Positions 9,633-61,995 of a DNA stretch of 64,000 nucleotides are shown here, piece by piece; within the stretch, counting starts at the first letter, position 1; the number at the start of each line of letters is the position of its first letter. Origin of the DNA: Ischnura elegans (lineage: Eukaryota > Arthropoda > Insecta > Odonata > Coenagrionidae); the NCBI RefSeq assembly GCF_921293095.1, contig NC_060254.1, positions 110,198,917 to 110,262,916 of the forward strand, given 5' to 3'. The position numbers and the translations under genes were made by a program. Below the pieces are notes generated by a model. The model was not told the origin of the DNA. It searched no databases and was given only the letters and a program-made list of their open reading frames with translations.

Positions 9633-12600
9633 CTGAAAAGAGAGAATAGGCAGCAGGTTTCAATAAGCCATACTTTCTTGGAATTGAAATTCAAAATTGA
9701 GGACCTGGGTGCAGTTATAGCATTCGTAGACCCATTTCCCTTTGATAAACAGTAAGTTGTGGGTGACATTACAACGATTAATGAACAGGCTGAATATGTA
9801 ATTGAATTACAAGCCCCAAGAGGAAGCATTGAGGTGCAGAAGAAGACAAAGAATCATTGTGGGAATGGAATGCCAAGAAATTTGTAGAAAATAATTAGCA
9901 TGAGAAAGAGAAAGTGAGCAGAAAATGATGAGGAATTAATATGGGATTAAAATGGAGAAAGGTGAGAACAAAACAAAAAAAACATCACCACCTTTCCCTA
10001 AAAGGTAACAGCTACAGAACAAAAATAAAATATTTTGACTCCTTGCCACAAATTACCAATTAGCCGTAGCCACACTTCTTTACAAATCACAGCGACTGAA
10101 AACTTGCGAATAGCCTAAATAATGCCATTTTACTAGCTTAAAACAACTGAGTAATACATACATGCTAAGAAATAGAATCCACTAATACTGTTCACAGTAT
10201 GCGATAATTATTTTTTGATTATGTATGCAGTATCTTTGAGAAGTTAATAGAAAGACATTTTTAAAATTTTGATTTTATACCATTACATAAGTACTTATAT
10301 GACTGGCTCTAAAGCAAAGTTTTCTCCATGGAAAAATAAAATTTAATGAATTTATCCTTCAGGATGAAATAGTTCTACCACATCGATAAAACTCCAAACT
10401 CAGTATCTGAACTCCTTCCAATTGGAAGAGTAAATTTGATAAAAGGCTTTGTTTGAATATGCATAAATAAAATTCAATTCAAAGTAGCGTTCCATCTTAA
10501 AATACCAAAAGGCAGAACTTCAATGGAACAGTGTGCCTCAGAGGAGATGACCAATACAGTAGACTCTCGTTACTACGAAGTTCACAGGACCGAAAAACTG
10601 GAGGTTCATAATAATGAAGTTTGTATGAATGTTTCTTTTAGGAATCATCGAAAAAAAAAACATATTTAGTCAAAATTTCTAGTCTCTTCAATATCCTGAA
10701 CTTACAATGGCATTGCAAAACAGCTTCAGAATCAAGTGTATAATGTACGCGATTAAATTACACGCAAATATAAAAAAACAAGCACATTCGTTTCATTTTC
10801 TTAAAAGAAAAATACGGCATTACGCACGAGGTTTGATATCTTCCCAAATACAATAAAACCTCGATACACCAACAAGATGTGTTCCTTGAGACCTTGCAAT
10901 CTATGCAAGGCATCGAGGATTGTGGTTATCCTGCAGAATGCAACACTGCATCACAGTTTACGTTAACTCACGATTGTGACGCACTGATCTGGATGGGCGT
11001 GCGACATAGCCGGGGCCAAAAAAAATAAATAAAAATCGCAATCCACAGGAAGGAAGAATGGGTGAAACACTGAACAGTTCCTGACTTCACACCGGATCCA
11101 ATGATACTTTCTCAGTTTGTGCCAAAAGTGCGAGTTCCTCTATGCCACACAACGTCACATCAGCCAACTCTAAAGGCACCAAATTAGACATTTCTGGCAC
11201 GCCTGGATTTTTCGAATGTTTGTATCTCTGAAAGTTTGTACATCGAATGTGCATTGGGAGAGGACTAACTGTTAGTCTAATTTATTATGGGCGATAATGA
11301 GTGGGTCATCTTGATTCCACAAGAATGAAGCTTATTATATGATGTTGAGTGCAAACTGAAGTATCAAAGAAGAACCATAATTGACATCCTTGGATGCAGT
11401 ACACAAGGAGAACTTAAACGTAGCGCAATGATTATAATGTAGCGGAGTGATTATCCACCTAAATGCAGTTACTTATTTGTTGAACTTCGTAATTAAGTTC
11501 ATTTTATAACCGCCAGGACCGGGACTGAGGTTCGTGATTTCGTAATACAGAAAATTTTGTAATAACGATTCTTTTAACATAGATTGGATGGGATATTTGT
11601 CGGGACCAACGATTTACTTTGTAATAACGAAAAACTTCCTAATAAGGTCGTTCGTATGAATGAGAGTCCACTCTATGACTATCAAAGAGCCTGAAATACA
11701 TACCTGGTTTGAATACAAGTGTGTTGTTGAAACGGGAAGTAATTTTATCAATCAGAGGAGCATTTTTATCACTCAGAACTTCCGGTCCTAAACCAGTTTC
11801 GTCAGCAATGATGCGGACCAGTTCCTCGACCGACTGGTGAGTCAATCTGTCGATACTGAACGTCCATGAGGTAGATCCCGTCCCTGTGCTCACACACATC
11901 CCAGAGCTCTTGACTTTCTTCCGTTCACCACCGTCCACCTGCATCTCATAGTACGAAACTCGAGCCGACAAACACTCTCCAATAAAAACCTGAGAAGAAA
12001 AAGATGCCATTAGCACGGAATTGTTAAGTCTGGCATGACATTCCATCAGCTATGAAAACAAACAGCTAAAATTGTTATCTATAAATCACAGCTACTTATT
12101 TCAATATAAAGATGATCCTGAAATAAAATGAACAAAGGTATGACCCAACAACATTCATGCATGCCTACATAATTGAGACAGCTCAATTACATGTAAACAG
12201 ACGTGCATCAACTACAAGGTAAAGTTTTATGACATTATTGTATGTATACCCATATACAAGTATGCAAGTAGTTTAATAACAAAAAAAATTAGGAAATAAA
12301 ATAAAACCAAATGGAGCCCTGAAGAGAAATCTGGAGATCTGAACAAGCACCTCCACAATAAACCATATGCATAAAATATGTAAGTAAATATGTATCAAAA
12401 GAAATAGTTTTACCTCATTAAGCGCTAAAACAGGGAGAACGCGCTTCTTTGCTGGTGTATCAGAATTATCATTACTCGGCACAGCTGCATTGTGTTGCTC
12501 TTGAATACAATCAAAAAACCTAATGCAAAGAATATGATAACGTTAGAACATATCTGAATGAACCATTCCAAAATATAATTCCTCGAAAAGCACAGATGAT

Positions 12601-15600: not shown

Positions 15601-17610
15601 GACAGAAACAGACAATACATACATGACAATTTCCTTGGAAATTTATACATTGGTTGCTCTGCCACACTTTCTCCGCATCTTTCGCATAAAAAGTCTTCAC
15701 CATACATAAACACAATTTTTATGTGGTCCAATGAATGTTTTACAAGTTTTATGCAGGTAATTGATTTTCCATGCTTGACTCTCAAAATGAATTAGTATAT
15801 AAATAAAATGAATTTAAGATGAAAAAAGGGCGAAGCATAATGGGAAAAATGCAATAGAATAAAATTTTTATCAGAAAAAAACTTAAAATTTTGGAGTTTT
15901 AGCATGACCAAACTGAAAACAGGGTTTGGAATTTTGAATTTGGATTAGGCCCCTTGCACACACACCAATTTTGGATGGCCGGTAAAATATCGGTCATCCA
16001 CATTCTAATAGTGAACAATGGGAGAGCATTGGAGCCTGTACACATGCCGACCTCGCACCGGCAAAATGCCAGCTAGCTGCCAGCCATTATCACCGTGGAT
16101 TGCCGGCACCGGCTCAAAAACATAGCAACTTATCGTTTGACCGGTAAAAATCCGGCGTGTGTGCAAGCATCACTTCGCCGGTAAAATATCGGCCGATGCT
16201 TTACCGGCCGTCCAAAATCGGTGTGTGTGCAAGGGGCCTTATACTCAGTTTTAAAAGTAAAATTTGCCAATACTAGAACTATCACCCTCGTTGATAATAT
16301 TTTATTCATTCGTTTGCGGTTAATTTCAAGCTAAAAAATATGAGTGGTAAGCGATTAACATTTCATAAATTCCACACTTCATCCCTATATTCACTAATTA
16401 GAGAGAGAAATTTCCTGCCCAGTGAAAAAATTAAAGAAGATTCCCAGATTCCATGTTTTTCAAGGGTTCACGGACAATGTAAAATATATTTACGTACAAA
16501 ACTAAAATTAGTCAAACACTATGGATCATTTGAGGCTCTACAGTGAATATAATGTTATAAACAACCTCAATAAAGGCCATTTTTACAGGGAATGGAAAAA
16601 TGTTAGAACTGTATTCATTTCTCATTACGGTGTGGAATTGCGCAAATACACAAATGAAATTGGAACGGGCTATTTTGCCATCTCACATCCATGCATTCTT
16701 GCATGCGTTCTAACAATTCATCGCTTTACACAATGCAATTTTGCTGTGCCTTTATACACACGTCAGATTGTTCAAGTATGTGCCCTGCGTAAAAGGCCTT
16801 TAAGAAAGAACCTGCACTAAAACTAAACGAAAATGAACACAGTTAGTCACCAGAATCCTTGAAGCTGCCAAGAGAAACGTTCCATCTCCACCGGTGGGGA
16901 ATATAGCGTCAGCCCATTCAATGTTAGCTTCAGTGTAGTCAAAGCGATTAACCACTCTGGTCTCAGCGCCAGCATCCCTAAGGGCAGCGGCAACTACATC
17001 TTCACACCTGCGTAGTTGTTAGACGATTATGCAAAAGAAATTATTAACAGACAATCAATTTAATCACAAGTGCAGCTCACAAAAATAGCTGGCATGAATT
17101 AATTTAATTAATAAAATCAATTGTGAAGGGTTCCAACTTAGATCAACTGCAATATGATAGGTCAAGAATTAAATGCTACAAGTAGTCATCATTATCGTAG
17201 GATTTAAAACACAGTACACATTGCCAAATGGCCCGGCAAACACTTGACATACTCTTTATGGAGTTGATGATGGTATAGTAACATGTCGTAATCGGATCCT
17301 CTTCTTCGAAGAATCCTTTCCAATTCTGACTCTGATAAATCAGGGTGACGATAGCGCTCAAATTCATACCGGGAGAGCTTAGAAACTATTAGAGCTCGTC
17401 TTAGAGGAAACGATGGTTTTCCTTGCTCTCGCAACGACGTGACATTCGAGGAGCAGCATGATGCATTGAGTGGGTTGACTGGACAAGTGATGTTTGTGGT
17501 TATGGTGGTTATGGGCATGGATGGAGGGGCAGCTGAAGACGATGAACAGTGATGCGGATTCTCCATTGGACTGGACGCAGGGCAGCCAAAGATACGTGAT
17601 GCTTGGAAAA
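9394..17610 (-). CDS. NADK2: Mitochondrial NAD kinase 2, seven coding exons
   Basis: NADK2 phosphorylates NAD+ to NADP+ in the mitochondrial matrix. Seven minus-strand exons were joined by GT/AG sites and phase: 17610-17244, 17007-16851, 14697-14581, 12773-12661, 12519-12414, 11989-11704 and 9632-9394. They give one frame of about 460 residues to a TGA at 9396-9394. Landmarks in order: SKLSRYEFERYRHPDLSESE; the glycine-rich TGGDGTFLLAAS nucleotide-binding motif; NSDPSRSEGYLCLP; an LNEVFIGE segment across a junction; STGTGSTSW; and the C-terminal KSRCFDAGLVVDGG. All follow the order seen in animal NADK2. The N-terminus is unresolved. The first listed exon opens in phase with a partial codon, so an upstream exon should exist, perhaps with the mitochondrial leader. 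The first in-frame ATG inside the exon is at 17566-17564. Its introns hold pogo-like and Harbinger-type insertions. Confidence 0.93.
10557..11673. mobile_element. Pogo/Tigger-like DNA element in the last NADK2 intron
   Basis: The left end begins CAGTAGACTCTCGTTACTAC and the right end, read in reverse, begins GAGTGGACTCTCATTCATAC. TA lies outside each end (10555-10556 and 11674-11675). CAGTAGACTCTCG is the terminal motif of pogo/Tigger-like elements in many animals. The body has repeated phrases of the type 'cttcgtaataacga'. No intact transposase was found, so it is non-autonomous or decayed. Its right end is about 30 bp from the splice donor of the 11704-11989 exon. Confidence 0.72.
11704..11989 (-). 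CDS. NADK2: NADK2 exon with STGTGSTSW motif
   Basis: The acceptor is TTCTTCTCAG before 11989 and the donor is CCAG then GTATGTA after 11704. The exon is 286 nt, entering in phase 0 and leaving one base. It encodes VFIGECLSARVSYYEM, then KSSGMCVSTGTGSTSWTF, then a helical segment ending NTLVFKP. Confidence 0.93.
12414..12519 (-). CDS. NADK2: NADK2 exon ending in LALNE
   Basis: The acceptor is TTGCATTAG and the donor is AATGAG then GTAAAAC. The first base completes an Arg codon begun by the preceding exon, and the exon ends in phase 0. It encodes a variable linker, then KKRVLPVLALNE, the conserved segment leading into VFIGE. Confidence 0.9.
12661..12773 (-). CDS. NADK2: NADK2 exon GDFKWLHRKRIR
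   Basis: The acceptor is TAATCAG and the donor is TACAG then GTACGTA. The exon encodes GDFKWLHRKRIRITLIG and ELHDQQLLHPEYR, matching the conserved FRWLWRQRIR-type segment of animal NADK2. It leaves two bases to be completed by the next exon. Confidence 0.92.
12774..14580. other. NADK2 intron
   Basis: No coding segment was recognised. Short GGAATT-type inverted phrases around 13380-13505 may be MITE debris, but no target duplication was found. Confidence 0.5.
14581..14697 (-). CDS. NADK2: NADK2 exon with NSDPSRSEG
   Basis: A strong polypyrimidine acceptor ends TTTCAG before 14697, and the donor is AAAAAT then GTAAGTC. The exon is 117 nt, 39 codons in phase 0. It encodes KPVVGFNSDPSRSEGYLCLP, a hallmark of the mitochondrial NADK2 branch. 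Confidence 0.93.
15948..16238. mobile_element. Foldback Harbinger-type MITE in an NADK2 intron
   Basis: The two ends are long inverted repeats starting GGCCCCTTGCACACACACC, with CCGGTAAAATATCGG-type repeats inside. TTA flanks each end (15945-15947 and 16239-16241). The 3 bp TTA duplication and ends match PIF/Harbinger MITEs. It is 291 bp with no coding capacity. Confidence 0.85.
16851..17007 (-). CDS. NADK2: NADK2 exon with the GGDG motif
   Basis: The acceptor is CTACGCAG before 17007 and the donor is ATTCTG then GTGACTA. The exon encodes CEDVVAAALRDAGAETRVV, then WADAIFPTGGDGTFLLAASR. The TGGDG loop is the catalytic and NAD-binding signature of NAD kinases. Confidence 0.94.
17244..17610 (-). 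CDS. NADK2: NADK2 N-proximal coding exon
   Basis: The acceptor is TTCTTTTAG before 17610. The best donor by phase is GTCAA then GTGTTTG at 17243, which rebuilds a Lys codon. The exon encodes a low-complexity Ser/Thr/Pro region, then FPLRRALIVSKLSRYEFERY, matching the start of the conserved NADK2 domain. An ATG at 17566-17564 could start translation if the upstream exon is untranslated. Alternatively, an upstream exon supplies the leader. Confidence 0.85.
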
Positions 17611-19182
17611 CTAAAAGAAAAGTGACGAAAGTCATGGATATTAAATTACCACCAAACAAACAAATGAAAAATATCAAAGACTTATCCATGTAAAACAAAT
17701 ATTTGACACAATCTAATCATTATCATGTGAATTACAAATAGAACAGAAAATAAATAAGTTTTCATCTGAGGAGGCAAAATTAAATAGCTGGGAATGAAAA
17801 TTATTTGTATATATGTCATTATCGCATGGAAGATGATGAAAAACAACGGAGAAATTACTTCGAAAATGTTTCTCAAGATGGAAAAATGAGCAATATGGAA
17901 TAATATATTAACAACTCAGAAAAGGCGACAAGGAGATGACAAGACTCGGCGGTAGGAATGCATGTTGAAACGAGGCATATAAAATGGACACAATACGCTA
18001 ATAGTGCCGGTGCAATGATATTTTTGACACTACTGTACCACTCCGTAATAACCACAAGGTGGAAATGTGAAAAGTAAATTCTGCACTCCCATGGTCTCGG
18101 AGTAGAAAAAGATAAGAATACCATTTTACGACTGCTATACGAATTATTTACCACAGAACAAGCTTTCGGTCACGAGACAATTAAAACTATCATCAAAAAC
18201 TCTAATGAGAGTGGAATCCAAACCTTATTTGCAATCACATCGTTTCAAATCTACTGAAGGAAAATGATCTTGATTACGCCACAAGAGCGTGGTGACAACA
18301 CCGATAACAAACTCGCATACTACCCGGTCAGAAACCAAGAGTGTCGGGTCATGGTAATTCATTTGAAACACGTTTCGACCCTTACGATTGCATCCTATCA
18401 AAGAATCTTTCGATAAATCAATCAGCAAATTACCAAGTTTAAATGTGAGAGAGCAGCTGAGAAACTACATAGCAACAAGTGCTACAGAATGAATCCTCAA
18501 ACCGGTACCATCGCATCATGCGAAACAGAGGCGATCAAGAGGCATAAATAAACCTCTCAGGGGCAGGAACAATATTATTCAAATAATTTGCATGGAAACT
18601 GAGAGTAAACATATGGAGACGTATTAGTGAATGCAAACTGAAAAGGGGACAACAATCGTAGCGGCAAATGCCATGATACTAACATTCCTTCCGCACATAG
18701 CGCTGAAACCATCAACAGTGTTGGATCCTAACTTCACCCTCACATCCCAAAACAATAATCACAACAATTGTGAAGAAATAATATCACAGAATTTTTATAA
18801 AATCTCACAGGAACTCACCAATACGACCCTTTTCAAGCAGAAAACGGGACTTAAACATGTCGAACGGTCACAGTAATTGTAATCACCTCCTGAGATAATA
18901 TGATTGTAACGGTTTCATGCTAATAAAAACACATCGATAAAAAATAAAGTTATCTGTGAAAAATAAACTCAAGGCGAGATTAAACACGGGCAATTCGTTC
19001 ACATTTCCGTATGCCTCTTCAGCTCCAGCATCAGCAGAGCCACGAATAGGCGAAAACTTGAACGAAGACAGGCGAATGAGAATCACATTTCGCAAAACCG
19101 CGCCAGTTTAATTCACGGAGAAGATTCTTCAAATCATGATTATGACGTTCAAATGCGGAGGATATAAGGATAGAGGATAAAA
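17611..19182. other. Region upstream of the first recognised NADK2 exon
   Basis: No ATG-led exon with the required phase was convincingly found. A relatively CpG-containing stretch at about 18960-19120 could hold the 5' exon or promoter of NADK2. This is inference only. Confidence 0.25.
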
Positions 19183-22371: not shown

Positions 22372-23028
22372 GGGTAAAAAAACGAAAGGCATTGATTGCG
22401 ATTCGTTACCCACCATTAGTGTATTCATAATATACAAATTATTTGGTTTTAGAAATACCGGTTTAGACGAATGGCAATGGTCAATTTTATCCTCATTTGA
22501 AAAAGGCCAGATTGGCGCCCATGCGATGCCACTCCACGTGACGTCAGAGGGACCTATTAGATACTATACGAGTAGTCAGGAGTTTTACATCATCTGAGAT
22601 TACCAATGCATGCATGAGGCACAGAGCTCAGGGAAACATGTCTTAATAATCACCTATTAAAACTGCCTATGGTCGGAAAGTTTCCTTCTTTTGATAGGGT
22701 ATTAATCGTATTAATAATCCTTATTTAAGCCATGCGCTACCTGCTAGCAGGTTACTCTGCTACGTGCTAGTATCCTGCGTCGTATCAGCGTTCAAAGCCT
22801 CGCCCCAAGGTCACCTCACTTGCGGCAGCGGGAACCAGAACGACGTTACACGGAGTTTTCCCAGCATTAAAACTTAGCCGTCGCGTTTTCGCGCGTTTGA
22901 AATTCTTCACTTTTGATTTAATCGCGAAAAATAGATATCCTCATTAAAAAATCTCTAAGCGTGAAAGACGTACTCCAGGGTTAATAATCTTTCGATTTAG
23001 GCAATAAAAAAATAATAGGAAACCACCC
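22372..23028. mobile_element. TA-flanked MITE family 1, copy A (657 bp)
   Basis: The element begins GGGTAAAAAAACGAAAGG and ends AATAGGAAACCACCC, with TA at 22370-22371 and 23029-23030. It aligns by eye over nearly its whole length with 42483-43123, differing by small indels and substitutions. Copy A lacks about 14 bp of the left terminal repeat that copy B retains. It has no coding capacity. Confidence 0.85.
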
Positions 23029-23573
23029 TATTTTGGAAATCAAAGACGCCGGAAAGAATTCGGAATTACCGAACGAACGTTTCTCTTGTAAATCTGTCGC
23101 TTGTGAAACGTTTAAAATGAACTGGGTAGAGAACCATAACCAAGAGCTCACTTAGCCTCTTCTCCCATCTAAACTCGCCCTTCATGGATCCTTTTCAAAC
23201 TTATCACGCTACAATTTCGCCGTAAAAGCTTTGTCCCACCAACCGTCAGCTGATTGAAGATAAAAAGTAAAAAAATGATTCAAATAAATTTCTCTTTGCG
23301 GGTGGATTTTCTCATTCCAGATCTCCTGGAACAGTAAATTCCGCGTTTCACTGTAAGAAGCTTGCGTCGCTAGATACGTGACTACGCGGGATTATCTCTG
23401 AGTGAGCCCAAAGAACATATCCTATGCCTGGGCTATCACTCATGGACACCAACGACATTCCCCAGTTCCTTCCTGAATTCGAGATCCATCACAGGCTCAG
23501 GATAAACAGTCAGTCAGGAGACTTGCACACACGTTTTACAAAGGATAAACATCCCATTAAGACCAAGAGATGA

Positions 23574-30389: not shown

Positions 30390-30947
30390 CACAGTGGACT
30401 GAAATCGAAAAAAGCTGGCCAAAAATGATTTATTTCACTTTTGATTAAGGAAAAATTATTATATTTTCTAATGACAGAATAACCAGTGTAAACATTACTA
30501 GAATAATTTTATTTCCTAGTCATTTTGTTAAAGCAGGAGACGTCTGTGAAATTGGCATGAAATGAATTAAAAATTTTTTTCTTCTTTGAAAAATATTACT
30601 GAAGTATTTTGCTGCAGTTTCGTTTTGATTTATAATGCCTAAATTAAAAGTATGCCTAATGTTAAAAGTGAATATTTTTAGAATCTGTTGAGGTGAACAT
30701 TTTTGTAGTACTCATAGTTTTATTTTTCATTTTAAATTAATACTTTCATTTTACCTTTTACAAAACAATTAAGATATCCTATTTTTTTAAATTATCATTG
30801 GTCTTTCAAACAATATTGTGGACTTCATCATACTAAAGAAGTTTCATAGCATCTTAAAAATACACAAATCGCAAAAAGTTTCATCGATTTACCAATACTT
30901 AAGACTACAGCAATTTTTGGTCATCCTTTTTCGATTTCAGCGCTGAG
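30390..30947. mobile_element. Transib-type non-autonomous element, short copy
   Basis: The left end is CACAGTGGACTGAAATCG and the right end in reverse reads CTCAGCGCTGAAATCG. The terminal roughly 170 bp on the left aligns by eye with the left end of the 1.1 kb element at 48598-49705, and the right ends also match. The copy has a large internal deletion relative to that element. Its right terminus has decayed, so no clean 5 bp target duplication is visible. No transposase frame is present. Confidence 0.65.
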
Positions 30948-31984
30948 CGAGCAATAAAATACCTAGCTAAAGTAAGATTCACTTTCTACCTTCCAATTTG
31001 ACACACCCTTTCCCTATTCAGACTACGTTCCGAATTTCTAAGTTAAAAACAAACCCATCACTAGACACGCATATCATCCATTTACACAAAAAAATATAAC
31101 TAGTAATACGGGCATAAACTCTGGAATCTGCCCTCTTCACGAGGGAAAATGGAATCAAAGTGCCACTTCATCCTTGCGAAAGTGGAACTTCATCGACGAA
31201 TGTAGGCAGAAGTAATAAACACATCCTTCTATTGTGAACCTCGTAGGGAGATACGTTTGGTTCCAAATATGTCCCTCGTATCTCAACATAGGGGTTGGAA
31301 TCTGATTCCCACGCATCAAAACAATCAATCGTCGAACCTTCAGAAAAATGCATCCGACCGGTCGAGCAGTAATCACTTGAAATAATTCAAAAATTGTGGA
31401 GAAGCTCCGAGGCGACTTCTCTAGTCATCACAAAAAACGATATTTTCCTCCGATCGCAGCGGCAAAGAGCTTTTTAGAGGTCTGCGAGAGGGTACGAAGT
31501 GCGGTCAACTACCAACCACGTCTCTTTTATTTGGCCGTCACTAAGGAGTTCACTTGCATCCCCGCTCGACCGCGCCCTGCCGCCCTTGACCAACCAATAA
31601 TGATGTCGGTATGTTCGTATACATAAACCCCAAAAATGAGACCTAAATCGACCACGTGACTGCGGTGTGGTAACTCCTTTCGATCAAAATAAGTATGTGG
31701 ATGGGTAGCTAGAGCAAAAAATTGGTCCCAAGATCAAAAATCAGATTTTTCATTGAGGTTCGATGGAGTTTTCCCTGAAACGTCACATGAGTCCCACTGG
31801 AATTCGGAACAGTTAGCAGCGTCAGAGTATGTCATGAACGGGCCCCTCAGGAGATGATGAGAACTGCATTGCCTCAGTGGTGGGGGTTGATTTTGGTCCT
31901 CATATCTTTACACGTGACCTCAATATTACTTCAAAACTTGGCCGCGTGTTAACTATTTTGAAATGTCAAAGCAAAATAAATCCT

Positions 31985-32171
31985 CACAAATGACAAAACG
32001 ACTTCGTTTTCTTACAAGGATTTATGCTTTTTGGTTTTACTTGAAATTTTTTTTTTCAAGTTTGGAAGTTTTTAAATTTTGGATTACTTGAAAATTGCCT
32101 CTTGAGGTTGAAACATGTTGTACCAAAAAAATAAATCCGTGGAAGACAACGAAGTCGTTTTGTCATTTGTG
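31985..32171. repeat. Inverted repeat pair 1, Penelope-type terminus
   Basis: The arms are 31985-32040 and 32120-32171, about 52 bp and nearly identical, starting CACAAATGACAAAACGACTT outside. The right arm is preceded by a TTGAAACATGTTG phrase. The motif GAAAC, about 15 nt, AAATAAA, then GTGGAA matches those at 36.7 kb and 52.7 kb. I read it as two inverted copies of the end of a Penelope-like element. Confidence 0.6.
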
Positions 32172-32506
32172 AAGGGAAACCTCCATAAAGTTTAGCCGGA
32201 TTTCGTCGATCTATACCAAGCTCTATGTTGATATTTCAGTTAAAATAATTCCCAAAAGGTCTTTCTGTGAATGAGGGGATAATATTAATTGGCCATTTGA
32301 AAATACTCGTCAAGTGCCATTACAGAGAACTGAGACTAAAACATTTAGCGAGGGAAGTGGAGAGGAGCAAGGCGCTCAGAACCACAAGGCAACGTCTGTC
32401 GTCAATTTTAACACCCTGAAAAGGAGATAATTCATCTGCAAATGTTCACCACAGTCACGTAATAAAAATCCCCTCGGTATAAGGAGTAAAAAGGAAAACC
32501 AACACG

Positions 32507-36300: not shown

Positions 36301-39300
36301 AAAGTAATCCCGCTAATCATCTCTGGTAATCAGTGAGCAACATCAACTGTATTCATTGCGATACGCAACATCTTTTGTCGTCATATGTCGAAGGATGAGT
36401 TTATTTTTAGTTTAAACTGTAGTTTCTTTTAACATTTCAGCAAAATTCTTAAACTTTGATATGGTGCGTGAGGAAAAATGTAAGTTTTATGCAAAAAATA
36501 ACCATAGATTATAAAAAAATCTGTTATCATTCCCTTGATGAAGTGGCCAGCAGTCGGTCACGAAACGTCAGGGCACCACGCGGCATAATATGTCTCTCTC
36601 TAATTAACAAATCAGGTTATTTCTACAATTCAGCTTAGTAAAACCTTGTTGTCTGTTTCCACACACTTTTATTTAAACCGACCATTGTTTCGGCAACTCG
36701 TGACATTATCAAGGCCTTTATCGAGTTGCCGAAAACATGGTCGGTTTAAATAAAAGTGTGTGGAAACAGACAAGTGGTTTTACTAAGCTGAATATCAAAA
36801 ATTTCCACCGCATCACGCCGGACACTGTATCTTTTATTTCTACAATTTGTAATATTTCATACTTCGTACAATATTCCATAGTTCTTGAGTGTAATATTCA
36901 TTTTTTTCATCTGAATCCCTTTTATCAGTCATTATATAAGCAGATATAAAAGTTGCAATTCGTGATTTGTTGTTTTACCAGCTCTCACGTCAAGCAACAA
37001 AAACGACCTAAATGTGGCAATAAGGGAGGATGAAAATGTTAGATGGGATGTGCCCCTCTAAATTGCGAACCAAATGAGACAATCTTTAGTCACGGCAATG
37101 TATCAGCCGAGAGGGTAAACAGTTTATGAAGCAAATATTCCCTGAGGGGTCTCGTGACTTCATCCTGTCTGTTAATACCAAAGGGGGTGATGGGCGCCTG
37201 ATTATAGTGTAAGCCTACCTGGGAATGGCATCTTGGTTGGCTACCTCCATGCTTCTACTCTTGAATTATGCCTATATTTCCACTGTCAACGAAGCCAAAA
37301 CACGAAATAAAAATAACAGAAAATAATGATGATGGTAGCTCATTTTGACCTTGACCTTGGGACACTCCTTTCGTGACAATTCTTACGTCATTGAAGATTG
37401 CAGGGGTGAGTAAAGTGTCCTTATCTCATGATGAACACCGCGGGACATAGGCTTTGGGAAAGATCACCCAAGAGTGGATGGAGTCAACGTCAAGCATAAT
37501 CTTACATCGCCACATAGCTACGTTCAAACTGGATTAGGTGAGGCCGTCCTCTTCCCATTGAAAGTCACCTAAGATTTTGGAAATGAACATTTCAGAAGTC
37601 ATGCTTCGCAATGCCTGGTAACCGGTTAAAAAGTCACCCCCAGCAAAAATCCTTTGTAAGGCCCAGAGAAAGTACGGCCCGCCAACCCTGAGTGTATGAT
37701 ATTCACTCACCAGTGACTTAGTCCGGTATGAGTTTTATTCTCACCTTTCCAAAACCAACCTTTGGATTCAATCAACGATTGAGTGGAATTTAATTATCAA
37801 ATGCTGTAAACTTTTGACTTATAAACAGATTTTAACAACTAATAAAGGTGTAATTAAAGCATGACGAAAACAATAATAATCTCTACGTCATGTGAGATTT
37901 TTTGAGGGATACTTCACACTTCAAGCCTTCAAGAAAAACTTAGGATATAGTCATATACACATGATTAAAGCCATCAAAAAGAAAATTAAGAAGGAGGGTA
38001 GGGTGAATGTTCCGACTCTACGACGATTCAAAATGTAAGTAGTTGATTATTAATCTTTATTATTAGAATATTTTTCGCAGAAGATGTTCTTTTTCTCGAC
38101 CAATCTTACCAACTATTGTATAAGAATTTCCATGCCAGATGTGGCTGGTTTTTAATGAATAACTTTTTAAGTATTGGATGCGGTGCACAGAAGAGTATTC
38201 CATTCTCCATTTTCTGATTATAAATTCAATTACAACGACCGTTGCGTAGCAACTTAGTTAGCTCTACAGGTGTGACAAATAAATAGAGGAACATTGTCCT
38301 TGAAAAATACTGCCTATTGAAAAAACTTACTAAAACAGTGGAGAGAAAAAAAAACAAAAACTAAGATATCATTTTAAATTAAAACTATATCCTAGGGTAA
38401 TATTTAAAAACAAATCACTTCAGACATTCGAATTTATAGAGATAATTAAGATTTAATTCTTGTTTGTGAAAAAATTAATGCGGGAAAATTCATGTATATT
38501 CAGCAATTGGGTTTTAACGTCTCTTCTGACACTTACCCATAAAAGAATGAAGGTGAGCACACTGGACCACGTGACGTAGCACACGGCCGAGAGCATTTGC
38601 ACGCCCAGCAGGTACCAGCCACCCCCTGCGCGACCCAGAAAAAAAGTCATTAGCGGAGGCGGAGAACAAGCAACGCAAAAGATCATTAGATCGCATATAA
38701 ACCCTTGAATGGACATGTTGGCCTCGTGAGAGGCTCCTAAAAAGGTATGATCTAGAATTAATTATCAGACCGGTTAAATGTAGAGAAACGACAAATGAAA
38801 TTCAGTGAATCGTAAAACCGTTTACAATTGTAATCATTTGACATTTGTAGAAAATACCTCATTCAATTGAGAAACTCAATTTGTTCAGGGACGTGTTTAA
38901 AAAATCGCATTATTTTCCAAATATTTTACTAAAATTACATCAAAAAGGAAAGTAAATATTTTAATTAAGTCTCTACTACTGATTGTAAACAATTTAATAC
39001 AATTTATCAAAATTATGTGTAAATAATAGATTATATTGCAAAAAGTTAATTTCTCAGCTTATAAATAAGTATTTGTATCGAATCAACACCAATAAAATAT
39101 TCCAGGGAATTGCAGTAAATGTGCTCAAATGAAGAATAGATTGGTTGCAGAGGAATTGAAAAGGTTTGAAAATATATTTGGAGGTCTCAGAGATATCCTG
39201 AAGACTATATTTTATTCTTGGTTTAAAATTCAATTCCAGGTTTATGAGAAAAATATATCAATTTTTAAGCAGATAATTTTGCGTATCCATCGCAAAAAAA

Positions 39301-42482: not shown

Positions 42483-43123
42483 GGGTAGTTTCCTTCATCA
42501 AAGAAAACGAAAGGCATTGATTGAGATTCGTTACACACCATTAGTGTATTCATAATATACAAATGATTTGGTTTTAGACATCCCAGTTTAGACGAATGAC
42601 AATGGTCAATTTTAACCGCATTGGCGCCCATGCGATGCCACTCCACATGACGTCACAGGGACCTAGTTTCTATACGAGTAGATAGAAGTTTTACATCGTC
42701 TGACATTTCCAATGCATGCATGAGGCACAGAGCTCAGGGAAACATCTCTTAATAATCACCTATTAAAACTGCCTAAGATCGCAAAGTTTCCTTCGTTTGA
42801 TAGGGCATTAATAATCCTTATGTAAGCCAAGCGCTACCTGCTAGCAGGGTACTCTGCTACCAGCTAGCAGCCTGCATCGTATCAGCGCTCAAAGCCTCGC
42901 CCCAAGGTCACCTCACTTGCGGCAGCGGGAACCAGAAGGACGTCACACGGGAATTTTCCCGGCATTCATACTTACCCGTCGCGTTTTCGTGCGCTTGAAA
43001 ATTTTCACTTTTCATTTAACGAAAAATAGATACCGTCATTTAAAAATCTAAAAGCGTGAAATACTTAATCCAGGAGTAATAATCCTTCGATTTAGGCAAT
43101 AAAAAAATAATAGGAAACCACCC
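42483..43123. mobile_element. TA-flanked MITE family 1, copy B (641 bp)
   Basis: The ends are GGGTAGTTTCCTTCATC and, in reverse, GGGTGGTTTCCTATTATT, with TA at 42481-42482 and 43124-43125. It is a near full-length sister of 22372-23028. It starts 117 bp upstream of the Amt exon ending at 42365, so it sits in the preceding intron close to the acceptor. Confidence 0.87.
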
Positions 43124-43125
43124 TA

Positions 43126-45659
43126 TTTAATCATCCTATCCCAATTACTCTTCTTCTTTCCTTTCCCTTAAGTCCACTTTAGTATGGACGAGTCGATTTC
43201 AAGTGTCTATTCTTGGGCACGGAATCGGAAATCCATCGCCAAAAGTTAATTTCGATTCCAAGAAGAAAAATATTTTAAAAATGCACCAAAATCTTAGGGC
43301 ATAAAGGCCGTCACACACCTGACTCATTGTGCGTTGTTGAGTAAACAGTTTAAGTCTGAAACAGTTTAAGTGTTTACTATTTTATGAAATATTAGGATAG
43401 ATATTAATACACTGCTAATATACTTTTTTAATAAATATACTTTTTGGGCCGCTCAATTGTCTTTGTTATTTTATTCCATCGAATTCCTGAATGATAATGA
43501 CAGCAATACTACTAAAAATCAATATCCTACCGGTTAGTATGCTCAAGAATCGATGGAATCGGAATCGAGAATCGATTTGAAAGAATCGAAAAAGTGGAAT
43601 CGACTCATCCCTAATTTATATTACTCCAGGAAAAAACAAATCCCTATATCTATCTGCGCAGAAAAATATCTCTCCTTTTTATACTGATCTGAAAGTACAG
43701 GGGGCTTCTAATGTGATGTTATCTCAGTCACTCTGAAAAATTTCTCTCCTTTATTTCTCAATCGATTTATGACTATCATGTAGTCTCCGAATCTCCTGAT
43801 CCCGAGCTATTCTCTGTGCTTTCTCTTTAATTGCTCTTCGTTTTCCCGTAACAATATCATGACAGTAACCCGTCGTATTCCTTCGACGGTTGTCTCCATC
43901 TATCCATCACATCCCAACATGCGGTCCGTCGTCTTAGAGTTTTCAAAGGACTTATCTTTATCGAAGATATTAATTCAGGCATTCCTCCTTTCTCATTTCT
44001 CCGTCGATCTATTTGATGCTGCGGGTCCCGACTCCCAGACAGATCTTCACTGTTTATTCTTTCCGCGCCTCCTTCCCTTCGTTGATTACAGACGCCAACA
44101 GTTTCATTGTAAATTTACCTCGAGAGTCTAAAACTGGCGTTAAGCCCAAACCGTTTATCTCTGTACGATATATCCCTATGACCAAGTTTTATTTTATTCC
44201 TTCGCATCGATGCTCCAAATTGACATCATATTGAATTCCTAAATCTTGTTATACTCTGCAAAAGGTGAAACTGATAACCCTAATTACTTTAAAAATGAAA
44301 TATAACCGTTGGGGAATTTTTGTAATCGAAACCGCTGATATCTCCTCATTAAATGAAGTGTACAGAATGAAACGCTTATATTAAGGTGGAATAGGTGGAG
44401 GCAAATGACAGCGTATTATTACACGGTACACACTCACGTTTTAAACCCAACTACATTCCCAAAATTAATGTATCACTGGGTATTTATAACATGCACGATG
44501 AAGCAGACAGTGAAAGTGCACCAAGGACCAAGTTAAATCTCAACTCCCGCGTGAATACGTTACCAACTGGGTATTTACCAGGCCTACATAGTGACACCCA
44601 AACCAGGTTAAACTCGTAACTTTTTTTTGATGGCCATTTGTGTTAGAAGACACTTGCGTTAATCATATTTTGCATGTCTCCCATTTCAGTGCCATGGGCC
44701 ATGATAACAATAACATGAAGCATGTTATTACGACCCCAGATAGGGGAGCCCGAATCCAGGAAATAAAATTTCTAGGGGCTTTGATGAGGGGATAAATTTG
44801 GGGGGGGGGGTTGATTTGGATGGGAAGCACTCGAGATCTACTCTCCCAAACGAAGGATGAAACCCTCCTCAGTTCGCTCTAGTGCCACGACGAGTAATAG
44901 GACGCGAAACTCCTTCCTCTGAATTTTCTTGGATAAAAATATTTTATATTTGAGGTTCTACCACAAAAATTTGGACGGTGGCCTACCCTACATATTCGGG
45001 ATCTATATACGAAATCATATCGAAAATATATTTATATGTATTCCACATTCGTTCGAACTGATACCGTAAATTTTAATTAATAATTACATCACCAAGAGAG
45101 ACAGAATGCGATCGGTAGAGATGCCTCCTCGAGGCTCAACCTAGTGGTTCAACCTAGTGATTCAACCTAGTGTTGAAATCGAATCCACCGCCGTCAAAGT
45201 AACACGGCAAAGACTATGAAAGCGACTCATGCATCGATTTTTTTACGGACAGATTGGAAGATGTGTCTAAGAATAGCTAATCGACGATGACAACTCATTC
45301 ATTGAAGCCGTGTGGACGAGAGATTGAGGAAGGACACACATTGTCACGAGCCAAGCAGGCTGTGTAAACCTAAATGAGGACATATGGTTTATGGATTTCC
45401 CCCACCCGTCCACGTCTTATCTTGGCGTAAAAATTGAGATAACGTGGGCTAATTCGATACAGCCTTAATTGACGATCCGCTTTGATGGAGTAAAGAATTC
45501 CTCATGGGATAACATCCAATAGCGGATTTCAGAATTAAGCAATGAAAATATCAGAAGGATCGAGAGTGATCATACACGTGCCAAAAATCTTATTGATGAG
45601 TTCATATCTAACGCTGGTCTTGAAATTCATCTTATAAGTAAATTTAAAAATTGTGTTTG
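43126..45659. other. Non-coding stretch
   Basis: Unassigned open frames (for example 43859-44131) have no motif. 44790-44940 shares phrases with 32866-33020. Upstream Amt exons were looked for on the minus strand and not seen. Confidence 0.3.
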
Positions 45660-46257: not shown

Positions 46258-46880
46258 CTATATCCACATACTCACCCGCAAGCCGCCATAGGCCTGTGGC
46301 AGGGGGTGTAAGGACACCAGCCGTTAACAAATAAATAGGAAAAGTCTAGTGAAGTTCCGTCTAGCATTTATTGAAGTTCTTCATCGCTCGGGGAAAAAAA
46401 GAATTCCCATAGTTATTCATTTGGAACAATATATCCTCAATTTAGCGTTTCTGTAGGATCTGGAATGAAAATTCGAGTAGTGGGGTTCTAATGTGATCGC
46501 CTCTGAAGGGTATCTATTCGCCATTGCTCATGCACTGTAAGCCTCCGGGGCCTCTCTAGCGGCTCCTGCCTAATTCGTTTAACATCAGTTTAACGCCTTT
46601 TGTATTCCTGTAGCAATTGTTTACGAATCGCGTAAATTTCTTTTGAATTTTATTCAGTTCACGGAGTAAGAATTTCTGCTCCGGATCCCATATGCTCGCT
46701 GCATATTCAAGGAGTGCGAAATAGCAAATCTCCTTTACTTTCTCATCCGATAATCTTCCCACAAAAAGCTTGACGAAACCTAATTTCTTCAATTCGTCTG
46801 TCGCCTTCATGCTAGCACCATCCACATAGTAATCACATCCACAGAATAATCCGTAAGGTAGTTGACGACCTACGCACAAA
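46258..46880 (-). mobile_element. CR1/L2-like LINE 3' end, minus strand
   Basis: The C-terminal ORF2 region reads YAASIWDPEQKFLLRELNKI, then KKFTRFVNNCYRNTKGV, and further on GNSFFPRA in another frame. This is the typical C-terminal domain of CR1/L2/jockey-type ORF2 proteins. The 3' untranslated part (GGCTGGTGTCC…GGCGGCTTGCGG) and a GTGGATATAGAT tail match the copy at 54950-55444. It is 5'-truncated and carries frameshifts. Confidence 0.85.
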
Positions 46881-48592
46881 AATCTACCACCGAAGGTACG
46901 TGTACACCGTACATTTTTGTGCTTCTACCTATGCACAACTTATTCATGGCAGTGGTTTAGTAGTGGTTTGAGGCCAGAAGACTCGGTAAGAGGCAGAGGG
47001 TAAGAGGAATGACGCGACAATAAGGGCACATAAATCGTTGTATCACTGGCAGATAGTTGTACGTGACAGCAGATGCTAAAAAATGGCGAACCAGCTTTGA
47101 AACCGGTCGTGCATTTATAAATATCGTGTGGAATACTCCTACAGAGATTAAATCACCTCCCCCATATCTATTTGCGCCGCTTTTTTCGTAAGAAACTCTC
47201 ATTATTTCTTTCAGTCAAGGGCTCGACGAAGTAATAACAGACACATTAAAAGCGCATACATTTGAACACTTTCGCCGCGTCAATGAGTCCGAGCAAAGAG
47301 AAGACAAACAAGCGAAGGAGACAAACAGCCCCTATCATCGTATTTTATCGCACTCTCACCCTCACGTTTCCAACTCGCGCAGTCGAAAGGGAAGCTTATA
47401 CCAACTGGCTCTTTACGGGCTTCTCTCTTCTTTTGCTATTTTTTTGCGAACAGTTTTGCGATCGATTCCCTTTTTTTCTGGCAAGACACTTGTGGCTCCC
47501 ACCCACCGCACGAATATGGCCGAGAATTTCTCTCTTTTATTGGAAAACCTGCGAAAGGTTTTATGGCCGTTCCTCACGGTCCCCAAGAAAGAATATATAT
47601 GGCCCTCGGAAGTCTCGGATTGCGAGCGAAAATAGATGCATCACATCGCAGAATCGTGGTGTTATTACTGCCGGGACGGTATTAGGTACTACCGTGGAAT
47701 ACTTAATATTCCATAATTAATCTGGACGCTAATATTTAACGTTGTACCGATTGGCAGGTGTTTTACATTTGGGCCTAATTTACAAATCTGGGTCTTTGTT
47801 CGACTATAAGCTGCGGCAGAGGTTCTTTGAATGCAAAATTATCTAGCATGGGGAATCTTCCAGAATATGCTCAACACATAGGATGCATACTCAATATTTA
47901 ACCTTAGGTTTGCACTCGGGTGATTGGCGTGGACCAAATCGCCCGAAGATCCGCAGAATTCGGCGCCATCTAATTAATTATTACTGTCAGCGAACACTTT
48001 TAGTGCTTAACTAGCATGCAAATTTATTTGAGAACATTTTCATCTACTAGTCCCTTGCGACACACAACGTAGAATTGGATTTGGAGGATTTATGTGTAAA
48101 CGAGACCATCCATACTAAGCTAGCAACTAACTAAATGTAGCAATAATTAATTAGGCATCAAAAATTAAATAAAAAATCTTAGGGGTCGCGAGAATTGTAT
48201 TTGAGGGGATTCAGGTAAAAAAATAGTATTCGGTTCACGGCAACTGTTTAGGTCTATTCAATCCGACATAACACGTGGCGGTGAATTTCAAAAGCATAGA
48301 AATTTTACTAGTTACTGTGAGAGAGGAACGGAGTGAAGAATTTCAGTGAGCAAACAAATATCGTATTAATCTGTATCTCTCAACAAAGTGAGCAAAGAGA
48401 AAATCCAGTCACAAAACAAATCCATTCCAGAATACATGCGGCTCTTAGGAAGCATACGTTTGCCTCGCAGACATCTCTCCCTTCCTTTCCTATTAAACGC
48501 TGTCACCTAATGAAACATTCATTAAACTGATTCATTCAACTCGCAAGTCGGTATGGTTAGGTGAGAATAAAGCTACATCCATATTTTGCCAA
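46881..48592. other. Non-coding stretch
   Basis: A 152-codon plus-strand open frame at 47262-47720 overlaps a 63-codon frame. Neither shows a recognisable domain, and no splice or family evidence supports them. Confidence 0.25.
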
Positions 48593-48597
48593 CGACG

Positions 48598-49705
48598 CAC
48601 AGCGGGCTGAAATCTGAAACTGATGGCCAATAATGATATTTCCCACTTTTTATTTTGGAGAAAATATGGTACTTTCTAATTATAGAATAATCATTGAACT
48701 AAATAGTGACGTAATTTTATTACTAAGTGTTTTCTTAGACCAGAAGACGCCACGTTAACAGAAATTGTTATAAAAATATGTTTCCTTTTATTAATATTGA
48801 CTGAAGCATTTTGCTACAGTTTCGTTTTGTGTAAGGTGCATAACTTTAAAGACCATCAAAAACTCATCATAGGTAAATGATTCCAGAAGTTGACTCTAAT
48901 GTTTAGAATATTTGTGGAAGAATCCGCAGGGATCCTCAATCCTCACTTTTCTCGCCACTAAGACACCGAGAGCACCACACGCGAAAATGTTCCTGGCAAA
49001 ACAATTTCGCAAAAAATTTTAAATGAAAAACCGTTTCCGAAGGCTCTTCCTTCATTCGAATCATTTGATATCTGGTAGTTTCGCATCTAAAAATTTTCAA
49101 AGAAATGTTTCAAAGATGTTTGAAAGAAATGCTTGTGTTGGAGGAACCAATTTCTGATGAGAAAAGCGACGATTGGGAAGCCGATTAAAACTAGTTGGTT
49201 GGTGAATTCATTCCTTATGGTTTATAAATAATTTCATGTTTTACGTTTCCAATTTCATTTTTCAAACTATAAATTGTTATTGAGATGATACCTTGTGCGT
49301 GTAATCCCAGAACAGATGTTATCACAAAGTTCAAATGCAAATTAATTATGATATTAACATTGTTATAAACGTTTTTCTATGTATGTCATATGAATAGATT
49401 AATTTAAATATTCTAATTTTATGATGAAATACTACTTACTTTCTGATTGAAACTATTAATTACAATAAAATGATTCCTTCTTTACTGCAGCGGTACGACA
49501 AGCTGATATTTTTTATGGATTTTGTTTTCATTCTCCGCGAATTTGTAAAACTAGAACTCTCAGGATCCTTTTTTTTCCACAAAATGTTGTTATATTCATG
49601 TTATATAGCAAGAACAAATATATTGGAAAAGATTTCGTCGCAACACTTACAAAAATATGGAAGATATGATTTCTGACCATCTTTTTTCGATTTCAGACCT
49701 CTATG
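48598..49705. mobile_element. Transib-type non-autonomous element with CGACG target duplication
   Basis: The left end is CACAGCGGGCTGAAATCTG and the right end in reverse is CATAGAGGTCTGAAATCG. The 5 bp CGACG lies directly outside both ends (48593-48597 and 49706-49710). Transib elements are known for 5 bp GC-rich duplications of the CGNCG type and ends starting CAC(A/T). Each terminus keeps a 7 bp heptamer-like start, a 23 bp spacer, then an A-rich nonamer-like box. The 1.1 kb body has no transposase-like frame. Confidence 0.8.
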
Positions 49706-49710
49706 CGACG

Positions 49711-54949: not shown

Positions 54950-55444
54950 CTTCACGCCACATCTAGTGAGGCCACATCTTATGCAGCGAGCGTATGGGAT
55001 CCAGTGCAGAAAGACTTAATCCGCGAATTGAATAAAATACAAAGGAAGGCTGCGTGTTTCGTCAAATACTGCTACGGGCGTACAAACGCCGTTACCCAGA
55101 TGTTAAGCTAATTAGGCTGGGAGCCGCTGGAGACTCGGAGGCTGCGCGCTAGGTTTAGATTGCTTGAACAATTGAGAATGGATATCTTTAAGAGCGACAC
55201 AGAGAACGTAATATTAGAGCCCCACTATATTTCCAGGTCTGACAGAAGCGATAAATTAAGAGAGATGTTTTGCCGAACGGATAGATATGGGAATTCGTTT
55301 TTCCCCCGAATCATAAAGGACTTCAATAAACGCTAGTCCCAACTTCGTTAGAGAACTTCATTGTTTTAGCTGTAAACGGCTGGTGTCCTAACACCTCCTA
55401 CCACACGCCTTTTAGGCGGCTTGCGGGGTATTATGTAGATGTAG
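54950..55444 (+). mobile_element. CR1/L2-like LINE 3' end, plus strand
   Basis: The ORF2 C-terminus reads YAASVWDPVQKDLIRELNKI, then LGWEPLETRRLRARFRLL, then RTDRYGNSFFPRIIKDFN and a stop. The 3' untranslated region includes GGCTGGTGTCCTAACACC and ends in a TATGTAGATGTAG tail. It shares both protein and 3' end with 46258-46880, so both derive from one family. One in-frame stop is seen. Confidence 0.9.
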
Positions 55445-60110: not shown

Positions 60111-61995
60111 ATATTTATTTGTAAACTGACTTATACTCTCTATTTAGAATGACACTGAAAATAATAAATAATTCCTCGGGATGATAAATTGGAGTATTAC
60201 CAAGCTTGGATCCTTGATTGAGGCCTAGGAACATCTTTCCTGATTCATTTCGCTCATGCGACCACCTCATCACCACTTACATCACATCTCCTTGGACTGA
60301 TATCGAGCCGAGATGAACAATAATGTGTTGTAAGTATAAAGCGATCCACACCAACCCTGCCTCCCATGTCCCTGATATAATCAACGAGCTGTCAATTACG
60401 GCCGATAGCATGGACAGCTTTCAGAGAGGTTCAAATTCTCCAGGAATTTTAATTGCTCTAGAATTTATCCATGAAAATTTTAAACATGTACAAAATATTT
60501 TTAGAAGATATTCGATTAATAGCCAGCGGTAACCTTTACGGAGTCATCTGCAAGTGTGCAAAGGAAAAATTTCTTAAGGGATAAATTATGTGCGCTGGCT
60601 TGGATTACTCATATCGAAGATACGATGATATTCCGATGATTTGTATACACCAATATTATAGTCAAATACTTACGAAATAGGCGTGCGGGAATTCCTAAAA
60701 TATTTCATGATTTTACAGTTTTTTTGATCGAGCTAAAACACATGAACGATTTCAAAAAGGAATCAGAAAAAAAATTGCAGAGGGAATTAGCAACATGTGT
60801 GGATTTTTCAAATTAAAAAGCTTGCGTAAACAGAAATTCAAAATTTTATCCATAATAATAATAGATTGCGAATGAGCTTATTCTCCCTCTTTCTAAAGTA
60901 TCATCCTAATCATCGTCAAAAGTAAAAATGTCCTAGTAATCGAAAGAGAAATTGGGAAACCATTCACCTTCCTCAATCGAAACTCAAAAATCCTTTTGAA
61001 AGGTTTTAATTTTGATTACATCATTCTATACCACGCGGGATTCGTCACTTGCTCATTCAAAACCAATTTACTTTTAGCTTTTTTCGATGACCACTTTTCG
61101 CGAACCCTTTTGATCTCTTTTTCGGATGTAATTATTCTTCAATCAATTTTTCCTTCCCATGTCGTCATTCCAAACTTGGCTTCGCATCACTTTCATCTCC
61201 ACAGCTCATTTGCTGAGATATCCCCAATTTCCTCCTCCTGCCTCCACGCAAATCGCAAGCAATCTCCCTAAAGGTCGACTCTCTCTCCCCTTTTCCAGGA
61301 AAACAGATTTTTTTCGTCGTCACACATCACCCTCATATTTAACTCCCATCTTAATTTATACGACACTGTCCACAGCGTGAAGTGACGGAACCGAAAAAGA
61401 ATCAAAACCATCGATCTTGGTGGCTCAACTTCTCCCCACCACCCAAAGCAATCTGTTGGCTCAACCCTCGCACACATAATTATAATTTGAAAAGAATCTT
61501 TAATCGGGAATATCATAAAATATTTGTCCCTTCATCCATTTTTAGATTTCTTTAAAGGTCTAATTAATAGAGGATGCCTATCTCCGTCTCTTCATACTTC
61601 ATAATTTTGATTAAATGATTTGTTACATCACCTTTACTACGATATTTGTGCCAAGTGTGAAGTGACTTGATTTGAAAATAATAAATATTACTGTCACTTT
61701 TTCATGTAAACAAACATTTTTTGACGATAAAGTTCGATAAAATACATTGTCCCAGTTGCCAGTCTCTCACGGAAATTATCAACAATTTCACAGCACATTT
61801 TCAACGCAAAAATATTTTAATTTGGAAATAGATACTATGACTGCCATTTGTAACTATTCTGATTTATTATTCAAATTTTCTGCTATATCAGTCAAAATCA
61901 AAATATCAAATTGAATAAATATTATAATTCAAGCATTCAAGCTTAACTTAACGGCACCTTACGTTTATTCACAGTTCTCAACTGGAGTATTGGAT
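60111..61995. other. Non-coding stretch
   Basis: No recognisable gene or complete repeat was seen. Short open frames carry no motif. Confidence 0.3.

Follow-up and report, generated by a model that had tools for sequence, protein, structure and literature searches.

A putative internally deleted Transib transposon in the damselfly Ischnura elegans, and genomic relatives that share its ends

The window and the ends of E1

The window, a stretch of 64,000 nucleotides from contig NC_060254.1 of Ischnura elegans, holds an element of 1,108 bp, E1, and a second copy, E2, recovered by scanning with the ends of E1. The features on which the argument depends are as follows.

48598..49705, plus strand: element E1, read as an internally deleted non-autonomous Transib-type transposon of 1,108 bp (from its ends, its duplication and its matches to relatives of about 3 kb)
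48593..48597, no strand: CGACG, left target-site duplication of E1 (direct-repeat test)
49706..49710, no strand: CGACG, right target-site duplication of E1 (direct-repeat test)
48598..48651, plus strand: left terminal inverted repeat of E1 (54-bp local alignment to the right end)
48598..48604, plus strand: left heptamer-like box, CACAGCG
48627..48635, plus strand: left nonamer-like box, CCAATAATG (22-bp spacer, 5 of 9)
49652..49705, minus strand: right terminal inverted repeat of E1 (alignment to the left end)
49699..49705, minus strand: right heptamer-like box, CATAGAG in reverse complement, the CAC triplet reading CAT
49668..49676, minus strand: right nonamer-like box, TCAGAAATC (22-bp spacer, 6 of 9)
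48598..48850, plus strand: part of E1 homologous to the 5' 265 bp of the relatives of about 3 kb (E1 1-253 against 1 to about 265, 69-72% identity)
49021..49705, plus strand: part of E1 homologous to the 3' 690 bp or so of the same relatives (E1 424-1108 against about 2288-2978, 66-70%)
48961..49188, plus strand: decayed remnant of the C-terminal transposase coding region, broken by frameshifts and stops and finishing ...LVLEEPISDEKSDDWEAD* (tblastn of the C-terminal exon of relative L051)
30390..30946, plus strand: element E2, a second, chimeric copy (end coordinate approximate; scan with the ends of E1)

Elsewhere in the window, exons of a mitochondrial NAD kinase 2 gene lie on the minus strand at 11639-12049 and 17204-17716 (PDB 7r4j/7n29, E = 4e-20 and 1e-8). 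Two fold-back elements, at 36628-36793 and 31984-32172, are self-inverted at 85% and 71% and are possibly MITEs of another type. An interspersed repeat occurs at 22376-23033 and 42501-43128 (two copies with 86% identity across some 630-660 bp, each with the terminal sequence ...ATAGGAAACCACCCTATTT), and an inverted pair, 73% identical, at 46258-46705 and 54980-55444. The frame at 46556-46924 resembles what we take to be the tail of a non-LTR retrotransposon reverse transcriptase; a Pfam search with this frame returned nothing at the cut-off. A weak end-like site at 60288 (20.8 bits, against 20.7 for the best of 100 shuffles) was not accepted as a third end; it is perhaps an old solo end.

The original prediction had placed the boxes CACAGCG and CATAGAG at the two ends of E1, each followed after 23 bp by an A-rich box (CAATAATGA and CAGAAATCA), with a perfect CGACG duplication outside them, and every one of these features is present at 48593-49710. 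The heptamers of E1 are themselves imperfect, and the right end lacks CAC. The inverted ends, 46-54 bp long, are likewise imperfect, with 33 of 46 positions identical without gaps and an alignment that can be carried over 54 bp. When flanking repeats of 1-11 bp were tried, matches were obtained at lengths 2 and 5 only, the former nested within CG-A-CG. The window contains 1,013 pairs of CA...TG ends that are spaced 200-3000 bp apart and flanked by an exact 5-bp repeat; E1 is the sole outlier among them, its 33/46 end identity standing against 25/46 for the next best pair. The first 50 bp inside the left ends of E1 and E2 agree at 38 positions, whereas the flanks outside agree at 15/50 and 13/50 and appear unrelated; thus the left boundary is set independently.

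In Transib ends an A-rich box is expected 23 ± 1 bp from the heptamer. The claim that the spacing in E1 is exactly 23 bp holds for the boxes as they were originally drawn, but it depends on the register chosen. When the V(D)J nonamer ACAAAAACC, as printed in PMC8289069, is compared with the left and right ends of E1 and the left end of E2, the best summed register of 40 has a 22-bp spacer (5, 6 and 6 of 9), and the right end of E2 also gives 6/9 there; a 23-bp spacer scores 3, 4 and 4, with 4 at the right end of E2. At single ends there are ties, the left end of E1 reaching 5 also at a spacer of 8 and that of E2 reaching 6 also at 10 and 11. Consensus ends of the relatives, taken in the 22-bp register, match the nonamer at 6/9 (5') and 7/9 (3'). 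Since a 6/9 match is expected at random with P = 0.017 at any position of the window, such matches lend only modest support to an A-rich box. Nor is the equal spacing at the two ends of E1 independent evidence, because the ends are inverted copies of each other. Judged by sequence, then, the resemblance of these ends to recombination signals is strong in the heptamer and modest in the nonamer. Passages of PMC8289069 describe Transib families as having mostly symmetric ends, Hztransib among them, in which the heptamer is clear and nonamer similarity is slight or absent, and distances of 20-22 bp and 23 ± 1 for the A-rich box are mentioned in PMC8355894.

Relatives in the genome and classes with shared ends

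The assembly searched comprises 1,722,721,009 bases in 110 contigs. E1 as query produced 564 first-look candidates. Scores were computed for 40, and all 40, E1 included, match, the others at 66-74% identity. The left 423 bp of E1 gave 121 candidates, and again 40 were scored. Apart from E1 itself, 31 of the 39 scored places begin at base 1 of E1, and in 29 of the 39 the match stops at base 253 or 254. Of 29 relatives extracted as loci, 22 extend to a right end that reads exactly ...CACTGTG. Longer regions were fetched for 20 of the 29, and both ends were located in 17; the remaining three (L035, L040, L041) show the right end only. The relatives of about 3 kb hold both of the E1 parts listed above with some 2 kb more between them, which indicates that E1 has lost about 2 kb internally. 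For bases 254-363 of E1 no partner was found.

The proposal that copies be aligned to obtain a consensus of the ends was carried out in large part: the relatives keep the same ends and have mostly 5-bp, often CGNCG, duplications. Among the 17 two-ended relatives, which measure 2.6-3.1 kb except for L049 (548 bp), the heptamer is exactly CACAGTG at every left end and at 12 right ends. Exact 5-bp duplications flank 12 of them (three CGTCG, three CGGCG and one each of CGACG, CGACC, TGACG, CGTAG, CGTCT and CGCCA); seven of these 12 fit CGNCG and five do not. L031 and L047 have 6-bp duplications, GCGTCG and CGACGC, and L033, L039 and L046 have no exact duplication. Mutual identity is 95-100% among 13 of the 17; for L033, L039 and L044 identity to the rest is 87-93%, and for L049 it is 74-76%. 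L051 and L052 were not counted as independent: their upstream frame and flank are identical, and they are therefore probably one insertion duplicated along with its surroundings.

The end itself is abundant. A 31-bp end, CACAGTGGGCTGAAATCGAAAAAAGCTGGCC, occurs 499 times in the genome, and CGNCG joined to a 25-bp end occurs 737 times, the CGNCG prefix being part of the pattern searched; the reversed control of each gave 0. Among 100 of the 737 places listed, convergent pairs less than 10 kb apart have the same duplication in 24 of 25 cases, and convergent neighbours more than 10 kb apart in 3 of 9. The end patterns are absent from viral and prokaryotic contig collections, which has little bearing on an insect element. 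The CGACG of E1 is a CG-rich target of the CGNCG type, which is among several preferences published for Transib: part of PMC4735498 gives CGNCG as the target in moth-to-baculovirus transposition, and for Drosophila hopper and transib2 excerpts of PMC3276498 give a preferred motif of CCANTGG with a 5-bp duplication.

The idea that E2 is just a shortened E1-type copy was rejected, since its right part matches a different class of element. Its left end has an exact CACAGTG, and its left portion, up to 351 bp, matches the 3-kb class at 72-80%; its bases 389-552 match a 2.2-kb class and a 628-bp relative of that class at 76-77%. Its right end is decayed, with no recognisable duplication. By these alignments E2 combines left-hand sequence of the 3-kb class with right-hand sequence of the 2.2-kb class. 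The 2.2-kb class (L059, L060 and L062, with duplications CGACG, TGTCG and CGTCG) is 97-98% identical within itself, resembles L033, L048 and L051 in DNA over only some 35-63 terminal bp, and retains a short piece of transposase (tblastn E = 1e-5 to 5e-3).

The simplest reading is that one transposase serves several element classes through common ends. Classes of about 3, 2.2 and 4.0-4.4 kb, whose interiors have no detectable DNA similarity, share near-identical ends of 35-38 bp. A bolder proposal, which we consider doubtful, is that they converged on these ends, or kept them by exchange, and that one RAG1-like transposase reads a strict two-box signal over the 35-38 bp, made up of an exact V(D)J heptamer and an A-rich box at 22-bp spacing. 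Were the proposal correct, an arthropod would show selection acting across hundreds of ends to set the sequence rules of a signal resembling a recombination signal sequence (RSS).

Transposase remnants, rival readings and movement

Transib transposases are relatives of RAG1, the recombinase of vertebrate antibody genes. The original assignment of E1 to Transib is borne out by relatives with the same ends, which encode decayed proteins homologous to the Hztransib transposase. A 110-aa piece of L033 matches Hztransib (PDB 6pqn, residues 341-435) with E = 1.6e-22, and a frame of L051, with stops written as X, matches residues 310-464 with E = 8.4e-33; neither of the remaining frames on that strand of L051 gave a match. 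Hztransib is the sole transposase among the structural matches of the relatives' pieces. The C-terminal exon of the relatives seems to lie after an intron. E1 was said to contain no transposase, and this is correct insofar as no intact gene is present; a decayed C-terminal remnant was nevertheless recovered by tblastn, in the pieces RHREHHTRK..., MKNRFRRLFLHSNHLIS... and LVLEEPISDEKSDDWEAD* (E = 4e-5 and 1e-4). Searches with whole transposase frames, four in number, found no match in E1, and the regions of the two D motifs were not found there. In PDB, three plus-strand X-masked frames of E1 gave no Hztransib match (one match elsewhere, E = 1.7), and matches to designed PPR repeats, from the search with a 39-aa frame, were set aside as repeat artefacts. 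In Pfam, eight short and six X-masked frames of E1 gave weak matches below the cut-off, and frames of E2 gave none at the cut-off. These frames of E1 gave no Hztransib match and no Pfam match at the cut-off; its membership in Transib rests on relatives at 66-74% identity.

A search for a RAG1-like protein between the same ends had been proposed, and it succeeded in part. In L065 (4,433 bp, duplication CGCCG) and L066 (4,058 bp, duplication CGACG) the first 35 bp agree at 97% with those of the 3-kb class, and the minus strand encodes a damaged Transib transposase bounded by nearly the same ends; in L066 an internal deletion fuses sequence that follows the first D motif with the C-terminus. L057, of a sister family, has an uninterrupted frame between that family's ends. 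None of the copies read has an undamaged gene between exactly the ends of E1. L057 came from a search with residues 310-464 of Hztransib, which gave 4,025 candidates; 150 were scored, and 13 of these lie in stop-free open frames of 500-714 aa. Five loci were read from this search, four of them (L054-L057) with uninterrupted frames of 585-714 aa. The L057 frame, 691 aa from stop to stop, lies in an element of 3,264 bp with CACAGTG at both ends and a CGGTG duplication on both sides, and its protein passes the Pfam RAG1 model at 27.8 bits against a cut-off of 25. The uninterrupted frames of L054-L056 have no Pfam RAG1 match, and no convincing end pair was found in the stretches read around them; L055 has a lone CACAGTG and then, outward, CGACG, at 3652 of the oriented locus. 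D290 (KWGCDGSS), D401 (TMIDGKV) and E611 (SEEAxEAxNK), in L057 numbering, are invariant in all four uninterrupted sister-family frames, and are presumably the catalytic D, D and E of Transib.

Two of these loci, L055 and L056, have Transib transposase frames of 710 and 714 aa that are 55% identical to each other, and may be domesticated genes, or else elements whose ends differ. A further locus, L058 (G000:C19:10480800-10484800), has an uninterrupted C-terminal Transib exon and is among 12 rows of equal score (145.5 bits, 169-aa frame). Upstream of the exon are frames of 153-156 aa unlike transposase, and the right end reads CACAGTGGTCTGAAATCGGAAAAAG; L058 may be a Transib that was amplified recently and has foreign sequence inside.

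E1 is almost certainly an old, non-autonomous internal-deletion derivative of a cut-and-paste transposon of the Transib superfamily in Ischnura elegans, presumably moved by a RAG1-like transposase supplied elsewhere. Other readings must be weighed against this one. hAT elements make duplications of 8 bp and CACTA/EnSpm elements of 3 bp. Ends that start CACAG/CAGTGG do resemble some hAT and CACTA termini, so that a non-autonomous member of another superfamily with CA-type ends might be considered; but the duplication of E1 is 5 bp, as it is exactly in 12 of 17 relatives, and elements with these ends have a Transib transposase. On duplication length and transposase homology an hAT or CACTA identity, which we hold to be highly improbable, was rejected. 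The possibility that E1 is a chance inverted repeat beside a chance 5-bp repeat appears negligible, the least probable of all. A 5-bp flanking repeat has P = 0.0014 per random pair, and the end score of E1 was reached in 2 of 20,000 unanchored alignments of random 50-bp pairs; against this, E1 is unique among the 1,013 pairs, and the start at its base 1 recurs in 31 of 39 other matches to its left part. Chance was rejected because all 40 scored places match and the relatives keep both ends and duplications.

A very small probability, slightly above that of an hAT or CACTA origin, attaches to an element of the RAGL/ProtoRAG type, with RAG1L plus RAG2L, in place of Transib. Such elements have the same class of heptamer and 5-bp duplications, as described in portions of PMC7204232; yet no transposase other than Hztransib appears among the structural matches, and the only pieces recognised by eye in L065 and L066, in frames of at least 110 aa, are those of transposase. 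The ends of E1 do not form a 12/23 signal pair of the V(D)J kind, the spacing being the same at both.

On the Transib reading, a RAG1-like transposase produced from another locus would bind the inverted ends of E1 and cut beside the CAC of the heptamer, and the element would insert at a CG-rich 5-bp target, which would thereby be duplicated on both sides. The chemistry would presumably be the nick-hairpin route of RAG and Transib, and a single transposase may act on all classes with these ends. Very similar relatives share stop codons in the transposase and yet occupy different targets. The identity of L048 and L050 rounds to 1.00, and their duplications differ. In a sample of 17 elements (16 relatives and L051), where some alignments are partial, the conserved exon has the stop of DMYP*YY in at least 11 and that of GQFS* in at least nine. 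A third shared stop, FPF*IGI (10 of 17 elements), was dropped as evidence, since it may lie in an intron just before the exon. A gene broken by shared stops is unlikely to move itself, and thus the near-identical damaged copies were probably moved in trans, and presumably recently. E1 is probably immobile, since its right CAC reads CAT, departing from the CAC that is essential for ProtoRAG according to part of PMC8289069, and its ends have diverged.

E1 and its relatives beside known systems

E1 itself is an ordinary dead copy of an already known kind of element, and the family is not claimed as unpublished; among open-licence papers, nothing on Transib in Odonata was found beyond iMITEdb. What is now documented is a damselfly Transib system that comprises several families and near-identical copies, together with precise ends in their hundreds and RAG1-like transposase frames free of stops. 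It offers a natural data set for asking which bases in the heptamer, spacer, A-rich box or flank of an RSS-like end are needed by a RAG1 relative, a question otherwise tackled by mutating single substrates.

The closest comparison is with Hztransib of Helicoverpa zea, an element of 3,518 bp with a GCTCG target-site duplication according to an excerpt of PMC1852546. The damselfly relatives share with it a homologous transposase (PDB 6pqn and others, E = 8.4e-33), a 5-bp duplication and symmetric ends with an RSS-like heptamer, as far as these are set out in portions of PMC8289069. In contrast to Hztransib, their heptamer is mostly an exact CACAGTG and their target is often CGNCG; E1 has lost most of the gene within a missing stretch of about 2 kb, and the C-terminal exon of the relatives appears to follow an intron. 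A likeness to the Trichoplusia ni Transib that inserts into baculovirus DNA lies in the CGNCG target motif (PMC4735498, in part). Drosophila hopper and transib2 are alike in the length of the duplication and differ in motif, CCANTGG there and CGNCG here (PMC3276498, in part).

Insect Transib MITEs are described in part of PMC5199201, on iMITEdb, as non-autonomous derivatives averaging about 482 bp; compared by description, E1 is similarly non-autonomous, and differs in being longer (1,108 bp) and in keeping a transposase remnant. With V(D)J signals the system shares the CACAGTG that is exact in most relatives and at the left end of E2, and, with modest support, an A-rich box some 22-23 bp in. 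It departs from them in that these are transposon ends, alike at 22/22 with no 12/23 pair, whose consensus matches the nonamer at 6/9 and 7/9.
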